A stretch of 64,000 nt of DNA. Source: Sphingobacterium lactis (GTDB taxonomy: Bacteria > Bacteroidota > Bacteroidia > Sphingobacteriales > Sphingobacteriaceae). The position numbers and the translations under genes were made by a program. The DNA lies in contig NZ_CP049246.1 of the NCBI RefSeq assembly GCF_011046555.1, positions 1,054,001 to 1,118,000 of the forward strand, read 5' to 3'. Shown in pieces: positions 4,004 to 13,091 of this stretch. The notes beneath the pieces are model-generated. The model was given only the letters and a program-made list of their open reading frames with translations. It did not search any database and was not told the DNA's origin. The stretch's first letter is position 1; every line of letters begins with the position of its first letter.

Positions 4004-5098
4004 TCACTTTTTGCTGAAAGTAACCATGTGCAATTTGTAGCCCTGTGCGGTACGTAGAAATTCGGCAGACTGTTGCTGTGGGTCTCCACCTTCCTCAGGC
4101 CCGAAATAGACGATCATTGTTGGGTAGCGGAAATCATTGGTTTGTCCACAGTTATCCAGGTATTGATGGTATGCGGGGGAGTCAAAAATAAAGTTGTTGA
4201 AACCGCCCTGGGAAATCATCGTTTGTGTAGATAACGATTGTCCGTCCCGAATTTTCTGGAATAGGTTTTCTAATTTCGTCATATGCTGATCCAGAAATTG
4301 TGAGCTAGCCGTAAAGATCCATTCCTGTTTATCCTCGTTCCAAGAAACGATGCTATCGGCACAATGCGAAGCCATTGTTTGTTTATTTATGCCTTGCTGA
4401 AGCAAGTCGTTCAGGAGATGCTTGAATTCCTTTTCGTAGTGGATAAAATTATAATACTTACCGTTCTCCCCTTTCAAGCTGACCCATTCCGGACCGACAT
4501 GAGGAGCTTCCGATATGTCCATGGCATAATAGTTTACCTCTCCCAGATAGGGGAAATCATTTATTAGCACTTCATTGTTTGCACTCACTAACATTTGTTT
4601 GCCACCGGACCAAGAATAATGTTCCTTATCATCCCCATCATATTGTTTTTTTGCACCTTTTAACGCGACGAACATGCCATTATGCATCGGGGTGACTGCA
4701 CTGTACATCGCCGGAACCTGCTCGCTACCAGCTGCATTGAAAAAACCGACCAAGTCCGTATTTCGGTCATGAAACCTGATAAACCCCTCCTGTTCGCAGT
4801 CAGGAGTGTTGTCGAAGAAATGCAGACTGTCGCGCCCAAATTTTCTGCCCTGTGCATTCATGAAATAACTATCGCTTGCTTCGGAATCCATATCGATTAC
4901 GGACACCAAGTCCGTGAACTTTTCCGGCATCCCAAAATTGGCATTGATCGTGGCCGGAATGACAATTTTCCCGTGCATATCTTTGTAGCCGATCCTGCTG
5001 CTATCCGCATTGTAAAATGCGCGCAAGGGGTTTTGACCTTGGCCCATGGCCAACACAACATAGGAACAGCTCAAAAAAAACAACAGGAATCTTTTCAT
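4004..5098 (-). CDS. secreted protein with WG-repeat-like segments, function unknown
   Basis: A 364-residue protein with a clear signal peptide (residues 1-20, ending VVLAMGQ). The N-terminal half contains short units such as GYKDMHGKIVIPATINANFG and LVGFFNAAGSEQVPAMYSAV. These resemble WG (KWG) repeats, in which G-[FY]-x-[ND]-x-x-G-x-x-V-x-P forms small beta units. The C-terminal half (about 190-364) has no recognisable domain and ends in a lysine pair. It probably acts in the periplasm or at the cell surface. It follows a HTH regulator gene by 14 nt on the same strand, so the two are likely cotranscribed. Function is unknown; another WG-repeat protein occurs at 21.2-22.6 kb. Confidence 0.7.
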   Translation of the reverse strand: MKRFLLFFLSCSYVVLAMGQGQNPLRAFYNADSSRIGYKDMHGKIVIPATINANFGMPEKFTDLVSVIDMDSEASDSYFMNAQGRKFGRDSLHFFDNTPDCEQEGFIRFHDRNTDLVGFFNAAGSEQVPAMYSAVTPMHNGMFVALKGAKKQYDGDDKEHYSWSGGKQMLVSANNEVLINDFPYLGEVNYYAMDISEAPHVGPEWVSLKGENGKYYNFIHYEKEFKHLLNDLLQQGINKQTMASHCADSIVSWNEDKQEWIFTASSQFLDQHMTKLENLFQKIRDGQSLSTQTMISQGGFNNFIFDSPAYHQYLDNCGQTNDFRYPTMIVYFGPEEGGDPQQQSAEFLRTAQGYKLHMVTFSKK

Positions 5099-5112
5099 AA
5101 CTTGTGGTGCAA

Positions 5113-5532
5113 TTAACGCTTTTTCTTCTTACTTTTTTTCTTCTCCAAGAGGTCTATGCGATCCGTTAGGGCAGAAATGGTGATCTCTTGGGATTGGATG
5201 GTTGCTTGTTGCGCATTGATCACTTTTTCAAGTGCCGTATAAATGGTTCTACTTTCCACATGGGAGTCAATTTTGGAAGGTAGGGTAATGGCGACACCAT
5301 CAAATTCACCATGTTCGGATTTAAACATCTCACCGATACCGATGACCAACCACTCGGGGTTTACATCTGGATAGTTGGATAAAATAGTAGCTATTGCGTC
5401 CGAGCCCAGAGCCGAATTCTTCTGAACACCCTTGAAATTGGCATAGGAAAGTTCTAATCCTTTAAAAAAGTCTACCTTTTGAATTCCTTTAGCCTCTGCA
5501 ATTAATAATACGCGCTCTTTAATATTGGTCAT
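5113..5532 (-). CDS. HTH (XRE/phage-repressor-like) protein with charged coiled-coil tail
   Basis: A 139-residue likely DNA-binding regulator. Residues 1-65 (NIKERVLLIAEAKGIQKVDF ... NPEWLVIGIGEM) fit the N-terminal helix-turn-helix of Bacteroidota phage-repressor-like proteins, including the frequent NPEWLxxGxGEM closing motif. The rest (about 95-139) is a glutamine- and leucine-rich helix, likely a coiled coil, ending in a strongly basic lysine run. It sits 14 nt upstream of the WG-repeat-like gene and 127 nt downstream of the unknown 339-residue gene, all on the reverse strand. A short AT-rich palindrome lies 40-60 nt upstream. What it controls is unknown. Confidence 0.72.
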   Translation of the reverse strand: MTNIKERVLLIAEAKGIQKVDFFKGLELSYANFKGVQKNSALGSDAIATILSNYPDVNPEWLVIGIGEMFKSEHGEFDGVAITLPSKIDSHVESRTIYTALEKVINAQQATIQSQEITISALTDRIDLLEKKKSKKKKR

Positions 5533-8070: not shown

Positions 8071-8436
8071 TCTTCTTAATAATCTATAATTTTATCATTT
8101 ACCAAGCTAACAAGCTTAGCCGTTTGTAAATCACTTTTGGTTATTTTTGATTATCTAATAAATTTGATGTCTATAAATTTTTATCAATCCATCTACTAAA
8201 TAGCCTTACCTTTGCCAAACAAAAACTGAGCGGGCACCGAGAATACGCAATTGCATTAAAAATCAGCCAGTTGTAGTTTTAAAGTAACAAATAGAAAACA
8301 TAGAAGTTTCTAAGTATTTTGACAATAGGATTATAAATTCTTAGGAAAAGTTTGAAAAGAATCCCACTACGTGACTACACGACTACGCTTTATAAATATT
8401 TTGATATATTAACACTATTAACAATTAGAGCAAATT
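8071..8436 (+). other. AT-rich intergenic region with an 8-nt-period repeat
   Basis: No gene seen. Two things stand out. TACCTTTG at 8207-8214 fits the -7 consensus. At 8366-8389 three tandem 8-mers ACTACGTG, ACTACACG and ACTACGCT precede the 188-residue gene. TTTTGACAATA near 8320 matches 11 nt of the palindrome at 13037-13091. This is the leader of the gene that starts at 8437. Confidence 0.35.
8207..8214 (+). promoter_or_regulatory. possible -7 promoter box for the 188-residue gene
   Basis: TACCTTTG fits TAnnTTTG exactly. It would give a leader of about 215 nt before the ATG at 8437, long for this organism, so a closer promoter in the AT-rich leader is also possible. Confidence 0.3.
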
Positions 8437-9003
8437 ATGACACTATTAGAATTTATTACAAAAGGGTTTAAAAACAATAATATTATAATTGATATTGAGG
8501 AATTATTACTGTTTCTGAAATCATATAAAATTGACTCACAAAAAAGTACAGAAGATTTATCTGAAAGCGATTTTGTTAAAGTTGGGAGAGTTTTAACTGA
8601 GTTTTTTAATAAGAAAAACATTATTTCTGATTTAGATAGAGCTAACTTTACAATTGAGACAATTGAAGATAGTAATCTAAAAATTACTTTAGAACAAAGA
8701 ACTCCTCAGGAAAATGATCCGTTCGCATTTGCTTTAATATATGATCTAATCAGAGAAAATTATTTTGAAAATGAGGATGAAATTCTTAACAAGATTTTCA
8801 ACGATTACCTTATTAAGAGTCACAACAAATATAATTTTAAATTAAAACCTAACATAAACAATATTAACAAGGATAATATTCGACAATCAGAATATTTATT
8901 AGTTATTTATCAATTAGAGAACTACCCAAACAAAATTTATTATTATACAACAAATGAGAAAACTCCCTCGTATGATCAGATTTCAAAATTTTTAAATAAA
9001 TAA
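8437..9003 (+). CDS. hypothetical protein, 188 residues, island cargo
   Basis: I do not recognise this family. The product is soluble, very rich in Asn, Ile, Lys and Glu, with no signal peptide or membrane segment. The N-terminal 60 residues (TLLEFITKGFKNNNIIIDIE) look helical, and the middle (about 60-110) is acidic. The C-terminal third carries a strand-like segment YLLVIYQLENYPNKIYYYTT. Its base composition is much more AT-rich than the chromosomal genes on either side of the island, which suggests acquisition by transfer. It converges with the 317-residue gene across a shared terminator. A role with the neighbouring ATPase or the 60/317 pair is only guilt by association. Confidence 0.65.
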   Translation: MTLLEFITKGFKNNNIIIDIEELLLFLKSYKIDSQKSTEDLSESDFVKVGRVLTEFFNKKNIISDLDRANFTIETIEDSNLKITLEQRTPQENDPFAFALIYDLIRENYFENEDEILNKIFNDYLIKSHNKYNFKLKPNINNINKDNIRQSEYLLVIYQLENYPNKIYYYTTNEKTPSYDQISKFLNK

Positions 9004-9030: not shown

Positions 9031-9984
9031 TTATGAAACTTGTAATGCCTCATCACTATCATCCTTCTTTTTCAAATAAGTTAACAAAACTGTCCTCCAA
9101 TTTTCGAGATTGTGATGAATAATTCTAGCTAAAAAAGCTGGATGCCTTTTTGCATTCGTTTTATCTAATGCGAAATTTTTATCATACTTCTTCAAGTCGA
9201 AGATATATGTCGCATTTCCACTTCTAAGATTCTCAAGAATGACTATATTGTCATTTGAAAATTCAAAATGAAAATACTCATTAAAGCCTCCTTCTCCATT
9301 ATAAATGTCAGTTACATTAAATTCTTGAAGTACTGAGAATCTATAACTGTTACCAGTATTATCTGATTTAATTCCATTTCCAAAAAATTCCTTTTTCAGA
9401 TCCTCAAGCTTACTTTGAACATTCCCCGTCCCCTTTGATAAGATTTTTCTATTCAGAGTAGCAGTTATTTTCATAATTGGTTCTAATTTGTCGTCGTAAA
9501 TTTGAAAATATCCGCCCAAAATTATACAAATGTTCATCGCTGACTTAGCTTTGTATAAAAGCGTATTATCATTAGAATCAAACACCATTTCATCAAAGTA
9601 AAGAATAACTTCTTCTTGTGGTGAAGTTCCTCGTTTTAATTTAAGCCCAAATTTATGAAGCAGCTCTTTTTCCCAGACCTCAAAGTCACGATCGTACTGA
9701 ATAAATACACCATCTTTTCTAGTATACTCAATATGTTTATTGATTACTTTTTTGTTTTCAGGTTGTTTCCTTACAAACTTTCCATGAATATTCTCTCTTA
9801 AAGGCCCCTTTTTTCCTCTAACTAATAATTCATTAATATTTCCTTTTATTAATTCATTTAGATCTCTGTAATGAATACCTTCAGTTGATAAGGATTTGAC
9901 ACCGAATCCGACTTTAAATTTATCTCCATTTCTTAATACCCCTTCCAAATGAGGTAATGAGTTTATTATTCTACCCATTATCAT
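9031..9984 (-). CDS. hypothetical protein, 317 residues, coupled to a 60-residue partner
   Basis: Family not recognised. A soluble protein with no export signal. N-terminal 35 residues (GRIINSLPHLEGVLRNGDKF) are followed by a basic segment, then an alternating strand/helix region with KAKSAMNICIILGGYFQIYD (about 142-161) and a C-terminal block with FSNDNIVILENLRSGNATYI and HPAFLARIIHHNLENW. Its start overlaps the stop of the upstream 60-residue gene by 14 nt (ATG ATA ATG at 9984-9976), so translation is probably coupled. A second ATG at 9978 is an alternative start. AT-rich composition matches the rest of the island. The tight pairing suggests a two-protein module of unknown job. Confidence 0.7.
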   Translation of the reverse strand: MIMGRIINSLPHLEGVLRNGDKFKVGFGVKSLSTEGIHYRDLNELIKGNINELLVRGKKGPLRENIHGKFVRKQPENKKVINKHIEYTRKDGVFIQYDRDFEVWEKELLHKFGLKLKRGTSPQEEVILYFDEMVFDSNDNTLLYKAKSAMNICIILGGYFQIYDDKLEPIMKITATLNRKILSKGTGNVQSKLEDLKKEFFGNGIKSDNTGNSYRFSVLQEFNVTDIYNGEGGFNEYFHFEFSNDNIVILENLRSGNATYIFDLKKYDKNFALDKTNAKRHPAFLARIIHHNLENWRTVLLTYLKKKDDSDEALQVS

Positions 9985-10153
9985 CTTCCTTTCTTATACC
10001 TTTAAATTTCCCTCCAGATGTTTTTACATCCATAAATTGACCAGTTTGCGTATCACGCTTAGTCCATAATCCAGTTTTAGGATTATGAGATTGACTACGT
10101 CCTCCGACGTATCCATGACGACGATTGTCGCCTGTTTTTCCGTTACCTGCCAT
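9971..10153 (-). CDS. small basic protein, 60 residues (KTGDNRRHG ... FKGIRKE type)
   Basis: A short glycine- and lysine-rich protein starting MAGNGKTGDNRRHGYVGGRS, continuing PKTGLWTKRDTQTGQFMDVK and ending near GGKFKGIRKED. From memory, small proteins of this shape occur in many bacteria, often annotated hypothetical; I know no function. I use the ATG at 10153 because the conserved-looking sequence begins there. Two upstream in-frame starts (10213 and 10186) would add a non-conserved leader. The composition suggests nucleic-acid binding (inference). Its last 14 nt overlap the start of the 317-residue gene. Upstream lies a 285-nt gap with no gene. Confidence 0.65.
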   Translation of the reverse strand: MAGNGKTGDNRRHGYVGGRSQSHNPKTGLWTKRDTQTGQFMDVKTSGGKFKGIRKEDDNG

Positions 10154-10376
10154 TTCTATTTTTTTTTGCAGATTAGTATTACCCATATGTATATATAGGC
10201 TATTAATTAACACTGAACGCTATTGGCTTAAAGGAAACAGGCTAGGTCAAGCCTATCTAAAGATATATGAAAGAAAAAATTAACATTAAATATTGCTATA
10301 TAATCCCAATCTTACGTATGTTTGTTTCGTCAAAAACATTTTTACTTTATTCAGATACATCTTTCAATGAAGTTTG

Positions 10377-10438: not shown

Positions 10439-13015
10439 TTACTTATTCATATTATACACTTCTTTTAAGTTTGTTACATCTTCTATTATTTCCTCGACTG
10501 GAATACGCAATTCATCTCCCATTTTAATTATTTCATCAGGATATGTATTGTTTAATAATTTCATTAATGCATAATAAATTGGCTTAAACCGTTCCTTAAG
10601 GATTGCTGAATTTTGATTAAAAATCTCATATAGAAATTCATATTCCGACTTCGCTAATAAATTAATCATTAAAGTATTGATATTCTCTATATCATCATCA
10701 TCAATTCTCCATAGAGTTAAAACGTCCATAATTAACTCTTTATCTAGAATATTATTAACTAACAATACTATTGCCTTCATTACTAAAAAGGGATAAAAGT
10801 TTTGATCTGATTTTCCCTCAATTCGCTGAATAAGATTGAGACCTTTTGAATAATCCCCTAATAAATCAACATAATGAGATAAAAGTAACGATGCACAAAG
10901 CATAAAATTTTTGCTTTGAATTTTTTTTCCTTTGTTTTCTTTTAAAAACAGATCTATAGATTGTTCTAACTTACTTACATCTTGGCTATTATCTTCTCCA
11001 TGATTAGTATTATTATCATCATCAGTAATCCCTATATCAAGTAAGTACAAATACAGATAATATTCTCCATTCTTTGGTGACAAAATCAAATATTCTTTCA
11101 GTTTATCACTATCTTTAGCATAGAATGCATAGAAATTTAGTAACTCAGAAATATCAACAATGCTCATGTTGAAACCAGTTAATAATAATCCCTCCATTTT
11201 TTTAAAATCTCTAAGATTAAATAAAGAAGAGATCATTTTTCCATAGGCATCAACATTTCCGAGTTTATATGCTATTTCAAAATGGTTGTAAGCATTATTA
11301 TAAATTTGCTGATCATAATATGCCTCCCCAATAACATATTCAACATTTGATTTAATGAGTGAATCTTTACTTCTATTCAATACTTCAAAAAACAGGTCAA
11401 ATTTATCAAAGTAGAAACAGATCTTTTCAAAAAAAATAAGATCTATATCAGTAATATATATTATGTGATTGAGGAGTTCTATTGCTAAATTATCTTTGCC
11501 AGTTTCTATATAAATCTGAGATAATATAAGAAGCTTACTAGTATCGTTTTCTTTGATGCTATTCAAAATATTAATAGCTTCATCAAACTTATTTTGTTGA
11601 TACCTTGTTATTGCAGCCGTGATTTTTCTTGAATTTACTAAGTCTGATAAATGCTTTACCTCATTATCGTTGAAAAGTTTTGTCGTATGCCTTAAAATAT
11701 CATCCAGTTTCAAAGGATTAAATTTTTCTGAATTTGCCAAAGCTTCAAAAACAAGAAGTGCCGATGATGGAATATAGTTACCAGAACTAATTGCATTTAT
11801 ATGCTTCTTTATAAAAATTTCTTGACTATCTTCATCATCATACCAAATTTCTAAGAATTTAGTTAGCCAAACTACTCTTTTTTTATCTCTTCGATCCCCG
11901 TTTCTCATAAGGTACCAGATATTAAAAAATCTCTCTTTTATTTGATATAAGTTATTCTTGTTTGAAGTTGATTTTTTTTCAATAACATTATTTTTCTCCA
12001 ATTGATTCAATTGAGCTGAAACAATTTTTGTAGAGATTCTTTTGCCATCTTCTCTTATTTCATTTGCAATTTCTTTAGCACTAGTAGCATCCCATTTTCT
12101 AGCAATTACATCAACAATTTTTCTTTGCTGAATCGGTAAATCTTCTATTCTATGTTTGTACAAAGGAGTTACCTTGTCAAGAATTTTTTCTAGGTCATCT
12201 AATGCTTTTCCGTAAGGATCATCTAACAAAACTTGATATAACATCATTATCGTTCTGATTACCCCCCCAGTCAGAATAGAAAGAGTTTCAATTTTTGCTT
12301 TGCTTTTATTCAGATTAATTTTTGAGTCTGCGGAACAATTCTCTTGCAACTTTTTTATGAGTTCCAATGTTTCATTTGCATTTAAACCTTTTAAGAAGAA
12401 AATATTAAATAAATCGAAAAATCTCTCACCGTTTATTTTGAAATTATCCAAAACGACAGCAGAAGAGCCTATGACTTGAATTAAAGGGCAGTTTAACAAA
12501 ATTGAATATAGTCTCTCTTTATCTTTCTGTTTAAGAATATCAAGAAAAAGTTCTCCAAAATTATCAAAGAATAATACTATTTTTTTGTTTTTGGACCTTA
12601 TAACATTTATTAAATAATTAAAACATAGTTCCTCATAATTCTCATTATCAACAAAGTCCTCAGTGCTATTGTAGTAAAGACCATCTGTATTATAATATTC
12701 ATCTAAATATTTTAATAACTTCTCCCATAAAGTTGCCAAGCTATTAACATCATATGATTCTTCACTAAAATATACAGGCAAAATGCTTTTCCTTAATTTA
12801 TTATCTCGCTCGATTTCATATTTTAATCGAAGTAGTAATGTTGTTTTTCCTAAACCTCTTTGCCCTTGAATAAGTATATGAGATTTATTGTTAGTCGATT
12901 CTGTGTTACTAATTATTTCAAATATATCTTTGAACAATTCAGTTCTGACAATAAAGCCCTCTATAAGGGTGTCTTCACTCAATGATGCAGGATTATATAA
13001 TGTCAATTCGTTCAT
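10439..13015 (-). CDS. AAA/STAND-like P-loop ATPase with winged-helix and TPR-like region
   Basis: An 858-residue cytoplasmic protein. Walker A is GQRGLGKTT (51-59) and a Walker-B-like strand is KKIVLFFDNFGEL (144-156), with Asp-Asn instead of Asp-Glu. A sensor-like strand LIQVIGSSAVV follows, then TGGVIRTIMMLY (249-260), as in archaeal-type ATPases and STAND NTPases. A winged helix occupies about 296-365 (QQRKIVDVIA ... KEIANEI ... LNQLEKNNVIEKK), followed by ERFFNIWYLMR, a segment typical of this ATPase class. Residues 400-858 are helical repeats resembling TPRs. NTPase plus wHTH plus repeats is the plan of signal-sensing ATPases including some anti-phage proteins, but no effector domain (nuclease, TIR, protease) is visible. 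It lies behind a 55-bp palindrome. Confidence 0.78.
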   Translation of the reverse strand: MNELTLYNPASLSEDTLIEGFIVRTELFKDIFEIISNTESTNNKSHILIQGQRGLGKTTLLLRLKYEIERDNKLRKSILPVYFSEESYDVNSLATLWEKLLKYLDEYYNTDGLYYNSTEDFVDNENYEELCFNYLINVIRSKNKKIVLFFDNFGELFLDILKQKDKERLYSILLNCPLIQVIGSSAVVLDNFKINGERFFDLFNIFFLKGLNANETLELIKKLQENCSADSKINLNKSKAKIETLSILTGGVIRTIMMLYQVLLDDPYGKALDDLEKILDKVTPLYKHRIEDLPIQQRKIVDVIARKWDATSAKEIANEIREDGKRISTKIVSAQLNQLEKNNVIEKKSTSNKNNLYQIKERFFNIWYLMRNGDRRDKKRVVWLTKFLEIWYDDEDSQEIFIKKHINAISSGNYIPSSALLVFEALANSEKFNPLKLDDILRHTTKLFNDNEVKHLSDLVNSRKITAAITRYQQNKFDEAINILNSIKENDTSKLLILSQIYIETGKDNLAIELLNHIIYITDIDLIFFEKICFYFDKFDLFFEVLNRSKDSLIKSNVEYVIGEAYYDQQIYNNAYNHFEIAYKLGNVDAYGKMISSLFNLRDFKKMEGLLLTGFNMSIVDISELLNFYAFYAKDSDKLKEYLILSPKNGEYYLYLYLLDIGITDDDNNTNHGEDNSQDVSKLEQSIDLFLKENKGKKIQSKNFMLCASLLLSHYVDLLGDYSKGLNLIQRIEGKSDQNFYPFLVMKAIVLLVNNILDKELIMDVLTLWRIDDDDIENINTLMINLLAKSEYEFLYEIFNQNSAILKERFKPIYYALMKLLNNTYPDEIIKMGDELRIPVEEIIEDVTNLKEVYNMNK

Positions 13016-13036
13016 TTAATAAATATTTAAACAAAT

Positions 13037-13091
13037 ATAGTGACAAAAAATTTATTGTCAAAATTTTTGACAATAAATTTTTTGTCACTAT
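13037..13091. repeat. perfect 55-bp palindrome, four alternating TGACAA/TTGTCA boxes
   Basis: Arms 13037-13063 and 13065-13091 are exact reverse complements around one central T at 13064. Inside, TGACAA (13041), TTGTCA (13055), TGACAA (13068) and TTGTCA (13082) occur at 13-14 bp steps. It fills most of the gap between the coiled-coil gene and the ATPase start, 22 nt before the ATPase ATG. It could be a multi-site operator, an extruding cruciform, a terminator/attenuator or a small mobile repeat. Confidence 0.9.

Follow-up and report, generated by a model that had tools for sequence, protein, structure and literature searches.

A perfect 55-bp palindrome ahead of a STAND/ORC-like ATPase gene of Sphingobacterium lactis as a putative local variant of a widespread promoter-operator array

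The locus, the palindrome and the predicted promoter

The window analysed here is a stretch of 64,000 nucleotides from Sphingobacterium lactis (contig NZ_CP049246.1, positions 1,054,001 to 1,118,000 of the forward strand); all coordinates refer to it. The features of interest are given below, the large ATPase being termed B. Loci of other genomes carry L numbers.

8437–9003, plus strand: gene of 188 aa, no Pfam or PADLOC family
9031–9984, minus strand: gene of 317 aa, no confident family, possible operon partner; in L073 and L081 a homologue with 52% identity follows B
9971–10213, minus strand: gene of 80 aa, PADLOC candidate family PDC-S38 (2.1e-29), possible operon partner; in L033 a homologue follows B
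10439–13015, minus strand: ATPase B, 858 aa, STAND/ORC-like AAA+ protein with winged helix and TPR repeats, proposed binder of the sites
13016–13034, minus strand: stretch where homologous loci have their third site (O3), aligned by eye with the latter; here TTGTTTAAATATTTATTAA, 19 nt instead of 22, no recognisable site left
13032–13039, minus strand: predicted −7 box TATATTTG (TAnnTTTG), separated by 19 nt from the −33 TTG and overlapping the end of the palindrome with its first three bases
13037–13091, no strand: O1 and O2 together, operator-like sites (from sequence), exact reverse complements of each other
13040–13061, minus strand: O2, 22 bp, minus-strand reading TTGACAATAAATTTTTTGTCAC, 27 bp downstream of O1
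13059–13061, minus strand: predicted −33 TTG, bases 1–3 of O2; in a sigma-70-like reading of the sequence TTGACA-16-TATATT, 11/12
13067–13088, minus strand: O1, the upstream site, 22 bp, minus-strand reading GTGACAAAAAATTTATTGTCAA
13108–13491, minus strand: gene of 127 aa upstream of the palindrome, hydrophobic C-terminal stretch by eye

The palindrome sits in the 92-bp gap between two minus-strand genes, that of the 127-aa protein and that of ATPase B, and is separated from the start codon of the latter by 21 bp. An earlier note on this DNA had described it as a perfect palindrome of 55 bp with four TGACAA boxes in alternating orientation, and this description holds. The arms (13037–13063 and 13065–13091, 27 nt each) are 100% complementary around a centre of 1 nt, and the hexamers TGACAA/TTGTCA at 13041, 13055, 13068 and 13082 follow each other in steps of 14, 13 and 14 with alternating orientation. 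The palindrome consists of two imperfect palindromes of 22 bp, of the type TTGACAA-N8-TTGTCAA and 27 bp apart.

A whole-genome search found the palindrome as a single copy in the 4.03-Mb genome. The genome is one contig of 4,030,188 bases, in which TGACAA-N8-TTGTCA with zero mismatches occurs only at the palindrome. Allowing up to one mismatch, the pattern is found at 7 places of the forward strand (2 of them in the palindrome) compared with 13 for the reversed control pattern. Scatter at unrelated loci, named beforehand as an outcome that would speak against a regulatory site, was not seen, and an interspersed repeat element was rejected since the genome holds no further copies of the palindrome. 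The note had further suggested that the 11-mer TTTTGACAATA, shared with the region upstream of the 188-aa gene, could link both transcripts. It does recur at 8317–8327 but has 15 genome copies on both strands (two inside the palindrome; 4 copies for the reversed control). The copy at 8317–8327 is a lone half site without partner, one of 13 outside the palindrome, and the proposed transcript link is unsupported. Apart from its own end, no homologue of the 188-aa gene was found in the loci fetched by then, and the 127-aa gene has neither a confident family (Pfam, PADLOC) nor a homologue in the other fetched loci.

B contains the P-loop QRGLGKTT, with G54, G56, K57 and T58 invariant across 36 sequences. 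Pfam matches to the ATPase core are weak: AAA_22, AAA_16 and nSTAND_NTPase5 stay below the cut-off and Bac_DnaA lies just above, while the winged-helix families FUR and HTH_12 match above the cut-off. In the AlphaFold2 model (mean pLDDT 85, pTM 0.59) a winged helix at about 295–359 directly follows the ATPase core, built of helices 295–306, 313–319 and 329–341, the last being the recognition helix, and of strands 345–348 and 356–359. Residues 1–383 of the model match the structures 2qen (Z 18.0, rmsd 4.2, 321 aligned) and 2fna (Z 17.1, rmsd 4.2, 320 aligned) as well as CED-4, NLRs and ORC. A fold shared with STAND, NLR and ORC proteins in a model does not show function. Compared with defence families, B gave a single match (mad8, 2.4e-4 over 46 residues).

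Sigma-A promoters of Bacteroidota carry a −33 TTG about 19 nt upstream of the −7 box. TAnnTTTG is given as the −7 consensus of flavobacterial sigma-A in the accessible part of PMC9723704. Ahead of B the pattern TTG-N19-TAnnTTTG can be read as TTG-N19-TATATTTG, with 16 nt between the predicted −7 box and the start codon, and a plain sigma-70 scan scores the same place 11/12. As the TTG of O2 is followed by the −7 box 19 nt further on, O2 occupies the predicted promoter, with O1 immediately upstream.

Site arrays at homologous loci

With the own genome counted, searches for relatives of B were positive in 12 of 250 genomes at the level of the order, in 18 of 399 at family level and in 35 of 395 at phylum level; an initial scan of genome contigs with a single protein query had confirmed no relative. 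In named genomes 131 relatives were confirmed, from which 79 distinct loci were kept. Of these 73 were assessable, since L083, L114, L136, L138 and L143 lie near a contig end and L119 is masked. An array of two to four sites is carried by 66 of the 73 (Bacteroidota, Campylobacterota, Gammaproteobacteria and Clostridium). Many homologous loci have a second ATPase, A, of about 380–410 aa directly before B, and the arrays stand either before B or before A. Absence of the sites from homologous loci had been the other outcome named as refuting; the sites are there, mostly as three imperfect tandem palindromes instead of one perfect palindrome of 55 bp.

Three dyads are the commonest form (52 of 75 array loci, i.e. 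the 66 named and 9 further ones). In 50 of the 66 named array loci the last dyad ends −3 to 14 bp from the start codon used. When the spacing was left free between 20 and 40 bp, the best pair was 27 bp apart in 55 of the 66 and 25, 26 or 28 bp apart in the other 11. The score that assigns loci to the array class allowed spacings of 26–28 alone, and its spacing counts (27: 93, 28: 13, 26: 7, and 54: 1 as an artefact from two identical sites) depend on that limit.

A three-site score of at least 35 was reached by 71 of 111 regions upstream of B versus 3 of 111 equal control stretches within or behind B, and a score of at least 38 by 57 versus none. Among the 111 regions are that of the window itself and some loci that entered from both of two collections and are counted twice. 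L091, counted in the 71 and in the 57, scores at a chance place; its true two-site array is elsewhere. Near-duplicates among the named loci, such as L073/L081 and L105/L110/L111, are retained in these control comparisons. When only the 110 bp ahead of the cassette are scored, 51 of 77 loci reach at least 35. For other genes in these loci the figure is 3 of 392, and a closer look showed two of the three hits, those in L085 and L103, to be the cassette's array facing a divergent gene. For the two-site score that defines an array the threshold was first set to 36 (26 of 87 loci) and lowered to 29.5 after a gap in the values (28.5 to 30) had been viewed; 3 of 77 control stretches (L131, L138, L143) pass 29.5. 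L097, in which the eye finds one site, was taken out of the array class by hand, and the array of L133 falls just short of the threshold; both are counted as loci without array. Against 25 shuffles each, 68 of 104 regions beat all shuffles with three sites, 71 with two and 75 with either. These dyad-symmetry and spacing scores replaced a k-mer-count test, which had little power in the A+T-rich regions (19 of 104 above all 40 shuffles). The own locus is weak in this respect, with a three-site score of 35 and z values of 2.1 (three sites) and 3.5 (two sites), because its third site is gone.

The promoter motifs were compared between array loci of Bacteroidota and of other hosts, the phylum of each being assigned by hand. 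Anchored at a site start, TTG-N19-TAnnTTTG is found in 24 of 40 Bacteroidota versus 0 of 26 other array loci, and TTGA..-N17-TAnnnT in 6 of 40 versus 21 of 26; neither motif is found in 11 and 5 loci, respectively. Without anchoring the hosts separate less cleanly (TTG-N17-20-TAnnTTTG in 32 of 40 versus 5 of 26, TTGACW-N16-18-TAWDNT in 12 of 40 versus 18 of 26). TTGACA-N17-TATAAT occurs in the Campylobacterota loci L100, L106, L112 and L117, the −10 box ending on the first bases of the next site. As far as promoters can be predicted, promoter and operator are fused, the promoter type following the host and the sites keeping their register. Putative cognate sites are hence found at the predicted promoter of the ATPase's own gene in a conserved register, and the exact 55-bp palindrome is a local variant of a widespread promoter-operator array of paired sites. 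With O3 lost, the operator of the own locus may be partly decayed.

Long perfect palindromes were also seen in two other cassettes, at L020:194–249 (26-nt arms, 4 nt apart) and L115:4730–4782 (24-nt arms, 5 nt apart). L115 is a Clostridium locus with two sites and the same kind of large perfect palindrome. Seemingly two-site arrays tend towards perfect symmetry, as in L020 and L115. L076 shows four dyads at 27-bp steps and two promoter-like matches shifted by 27 bp.

The model of 22-bp dyads at 27 bp misfits the distant cassettes L020–L022, L038 and L045–L068, which were left out of the co-variation counts. Many distant cassettes show other inverted repeats before the cassette by eye, among them L045–L068 from the phylum search (GAATAAATTC, GCCAAC/GTTGGC before the first gene). 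No obvious repeats were seen by eye before the start used in L044, L048, L049, L054, L057 and L059–L064. L057 and L059–L064 are B-only copies behind a ClpB-like gene.

Half sites and the recognition helix of B

The half sites vary between loci and do so symmetrically (GACAA, GACGA, GACTA, TGCAA, GCCAA). For 59 loci that share less than 85% identity in the ATPase domain, the distance between sites correlates with that between helices (r 0.48) and, less strongly, with that between ATPase domains (r 0.37). In partial Mantel tests on these loci, the helix given the ATPase domain retains r 0.36 (p 0.0005) and the ATPase domain given the helix 0.13. The pairings are as follows.

Helix [ST]Kx[IV]S[AS][QHN]L: half site (G/A)(A/G)CAA, in most loci of this helix type
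Helix SKN[IV]S[SKT]I: half site GACGA or AACGA, 11 loci, 9 of them named
Helix SKHISS[IV]L: half site (A/G)CAA
Helix SKTVSAQL[VI]KLQQQ: half site GACTA or AACTA, Psychrobacter, 5 loci
Helix [ST]NQISAQLK: half site TGCAA, 3 loci
Helix NSGVSAQL: half site GCCAA, 1 locus

This pairing is not a clean code. SKNISAQL of Pseudoalteromonas pairs with GACAA, hence the N alone does not set the site type. SKTVSAQL of Psychrobacter fits the GACAA helix pattern in its core, yet pairs with GACTA; it differs in the residues after the core. The motif [ST][KN]x[IVT]S, chosen post hoc, is present in all 66 named array loci versus 2 of the 7 without scored array (Fisher p 1.4e-6). It is absent from L104, L125, L144, L145 and L147, and the two that have it are L097 with its one site and L133 with its sub-threshold array. 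The array locus L019, outside the named 66, has NSGVS in its place.

Two Moraxella osloensis plasmids, added after these pairings had been tabulated, encode a Psychrobacter-like helix (SKTVSAQLVELQK) and carry three (A/G)ACTA dyads about 27 bp apart. Their upstream stretches are identical and so count as one case, and as Moraxella is related to Psychrobacter they represent a modest test of the pairing. Two homologues on alphaproteobacterial plasmids show VN(T/I)ASAMLGRL helices with repeats of the GCCAGC/GTTGGC type, which by eye resemble those of L055–L068, likewise with VN-type helices. In one genome (G216) there are two cassettes that differ in their helices and, by eye, in their repeats.

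Putative autoregulation, alternative binders and known systems

We consider it likely, with a probability of roughly 0.7, that the palindrome is the operator region of the B promoter and that B most likely binds it to shut off its own operon. The earlier note had proposed two stacked dimer sites and autoregulation through the winged helix of the ATPase. Arrays, register and helix co-variation lend this proposal comparative support, though not proof. An ancestral array of three 22-bp dyads at 27-bp spacing would have been reduced to two survivors, O1 and O2, which perfected each other. O2 would lie between the −33 and −7 elements, with the −33 TTG as its outer half site, and O1 just upstream. 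B would bind the sites through its winged helix as a dimer or higher oligomer and thereby shut off an operon of B, the 80-aa PDC-S38 protein and the 317-aa protein, so that a potentially toxic, immune-receptor-like ATPase might be kept scarce until its sensor part, the TPR repeats, is engaged. We infer B as binder, the repression, its relief by a signal, the three-gene operon and the role in defence. As an operator between −33 and −7 most simply represses, autorepression relieved upon engagement of B is proposed; an operator can also activate. The modelled winged helix and its likeness to SSO1545/PAB2304 and to DNA-bound Orc1/Cdc6 speak in favour of DNA binding by B. Against B as binder counts that in STAND proteins a winged helix may act solely as a switch inside the ATPase core.

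A minor yet real chance is left to the partner ATPase A, or a complex of A and B, as the binder, the helix of B co-varying with the sites only through joint inheritance of A and B. A was detected in 52 of the 66 named array loci, and a winged-helix family is matched weakly, below the cut-off, by one A protein (WHD_MCM8, 0.003). Among the 48 distinct loci with A, the sites follow A (r 0.38) as well as the helix of B (r 0.37), and either informs beyond the other (partial r 0.24 for A with p 0.0005, and 0.22 for the helix with p 0.01). In A-bearing loci the co-variation alone hence does not single out B, and an A-B complex is possible in loci other than the own one. The own genome, however, lacks A, the best match of the A profile being a 73-position, 22.8-bit piece of another ORF, and no A was detected in 14 of the 66 array loci, including all nine named loci of the GACGA class. 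For L085, one of the 14, an undetected A is likely, as its array lies 1.3–1.4 kb before B. The stretch between array and B of L085 showed no intact reading frame for A, which may be broken in this locus.

Binding of the sites by a regulator of the host, whether global or encoded elsewhere in the genome, is compatible with their overlap with the predicted promoter, and so is a second ligand. We consider such a regulator unlikely, as the site pair is unique in the own genome, and in 11 other genomes the exact-site pattern, which would miss divergent sites, gave only scattered singles and no second tandem pair outside the cassette. Moreover the site type follows B and not the host: G216 has two repeat types for its two cassettes, and plasmid-borne cassettes carry their own. 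An RNA hairpin, either as intrinsic terminator of the upstream 127-aa gene or as leader structure of the ATPase mRNA, appears about as improbable. The hairpin would be very stable, the 92-nt intergenic stretch as a single RNA strand folding with −34.7 kcal/mol versus −8.8 ± 2.3 in 200 dinucleotide shuffles (z −11.3), and a terminator scan finds a minus-strand stem with the T-rich tail CTATATTTGT. Of the 20 stem pairs scored, however, only 3–4 are G-C pairs, and homologous loci keep separate 22-bp dyads in promoter register. Since the predicted start point is downstream of the palindrome (near 13027 on the minus strand, taking −12 to −5 as the extent of the −7 box), transcripts of the predicted promoter would lack it. 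Transcription running on from the 127-aa gene could still yield the hairpin as a by-product. Hardly any weight is given to a repeat element, a transposon end or a replication or partition site of an ORC-like protein. The ORC/Cdc6-like fold and the tandem order of the sites, reminiscent of origin boxes or iterons, would fit such an element, but the palindrome is not repeated in the genome, occupies a single chromosomal place, and in homologues the sites lie on promoter motifs near the start codon of the cassette.

Returning to autoregulation by B, we see an even chance for a more general view. B would belong to a family of immune ATPases of the NLR/ORC-like kind that moves horizontally and uses the winged helix of its core as a sequence-specific autorepressor, with lineage-specific arrays of up to four dyads at 27 bp that are re-fitted to the sigma factor of the host while the pairing of helix and half site evolves. 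If true, sensor, effector switch and repressor of the family would be one protein, and receptor activation and operon induction could be one event. The wider question is how potentially lethal bacterial immune receptors stay quiet before infection. Here a control region can be read across several phyla, and the list of helices and half sites offers direct and cheap tests. If right, a STAND-type ATPase would be its own repressor, which ties the NLR-like/ORC-like fold to sequence-specific DNA binding in bacteria, and dyads spaced by 27 bp and fused to a promoter would be a sequence handle for finding such operons. In the literature searched, judged by titles and abstract openings within the terms used, no description of these arrays was found. 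What deserves interest is the cross-phylum promoter-operator array and the way in which its half sites appear to pair with recognition helices.

Structurally, the ATPase core of B together with its winged helix is matched best by the archaeal STAND-type AAA+ proteins SSO1545/PAB2304; the matched chains have 350–352 residues, B has 858 including its TPR part. To our knowledge, no operator array is known for these proteins. Archaeal Orc1/Cdc6 proteins resemble B in that the AAA+ domain is followed by a winged helix, and DNA-bound 2qby and 2v1u are among the top matches. Orc1/Cdc6 binds origins, whereas the sites of B lie on the predicted promoter of its own gene. BrxR/WYL regulators are separate regulator proteins; the regulator proposed here is the immune-like ATPase itself. 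Like the regulator proposed here, they are transcriptional regulators accompanying defence genes, and the accessible text mentions inverted repeats 17 times (PMC9122601). Control of some defence genes by other regulators is described in the accessible parts of PMC9122601 and PMC12255303.

The mycobacterial regulator IniR is a STAND-like ATPase that binds a promoter, has a MalT-like sensor domain and an AAA+ part compared with SSO1545 (PMC5760070, accessible part). The same text describes IniR as an inducer of the iniBAC operon and places its predicted DNA-binding part in a LuxR-like domain at the C terminus. B differs from IniR by its winged helix right after the ATPase core and by the array of sites at its own promoter. 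The plant NLR Rx1, a STAND ATPase with a Cdc6/Orc1-like core, is reported to bind and bend DNA after pathogen recognition; unlike at the B locus, the accessible part of that report gives no autoregulatory operator array (PMC4599002).

The putative defensive role is suggested by no more than two points, the PADLOC candidate family and the fold. For PDC-S38 no description was found in the literature searched. Behind many named B genes there is no same-strand gene within 250 bp. In L031 an MBL-like gene follows B, and in L034 a B-only cassette of the GACGA class is followed by two ThsB-like TIR genes (4153–5302).
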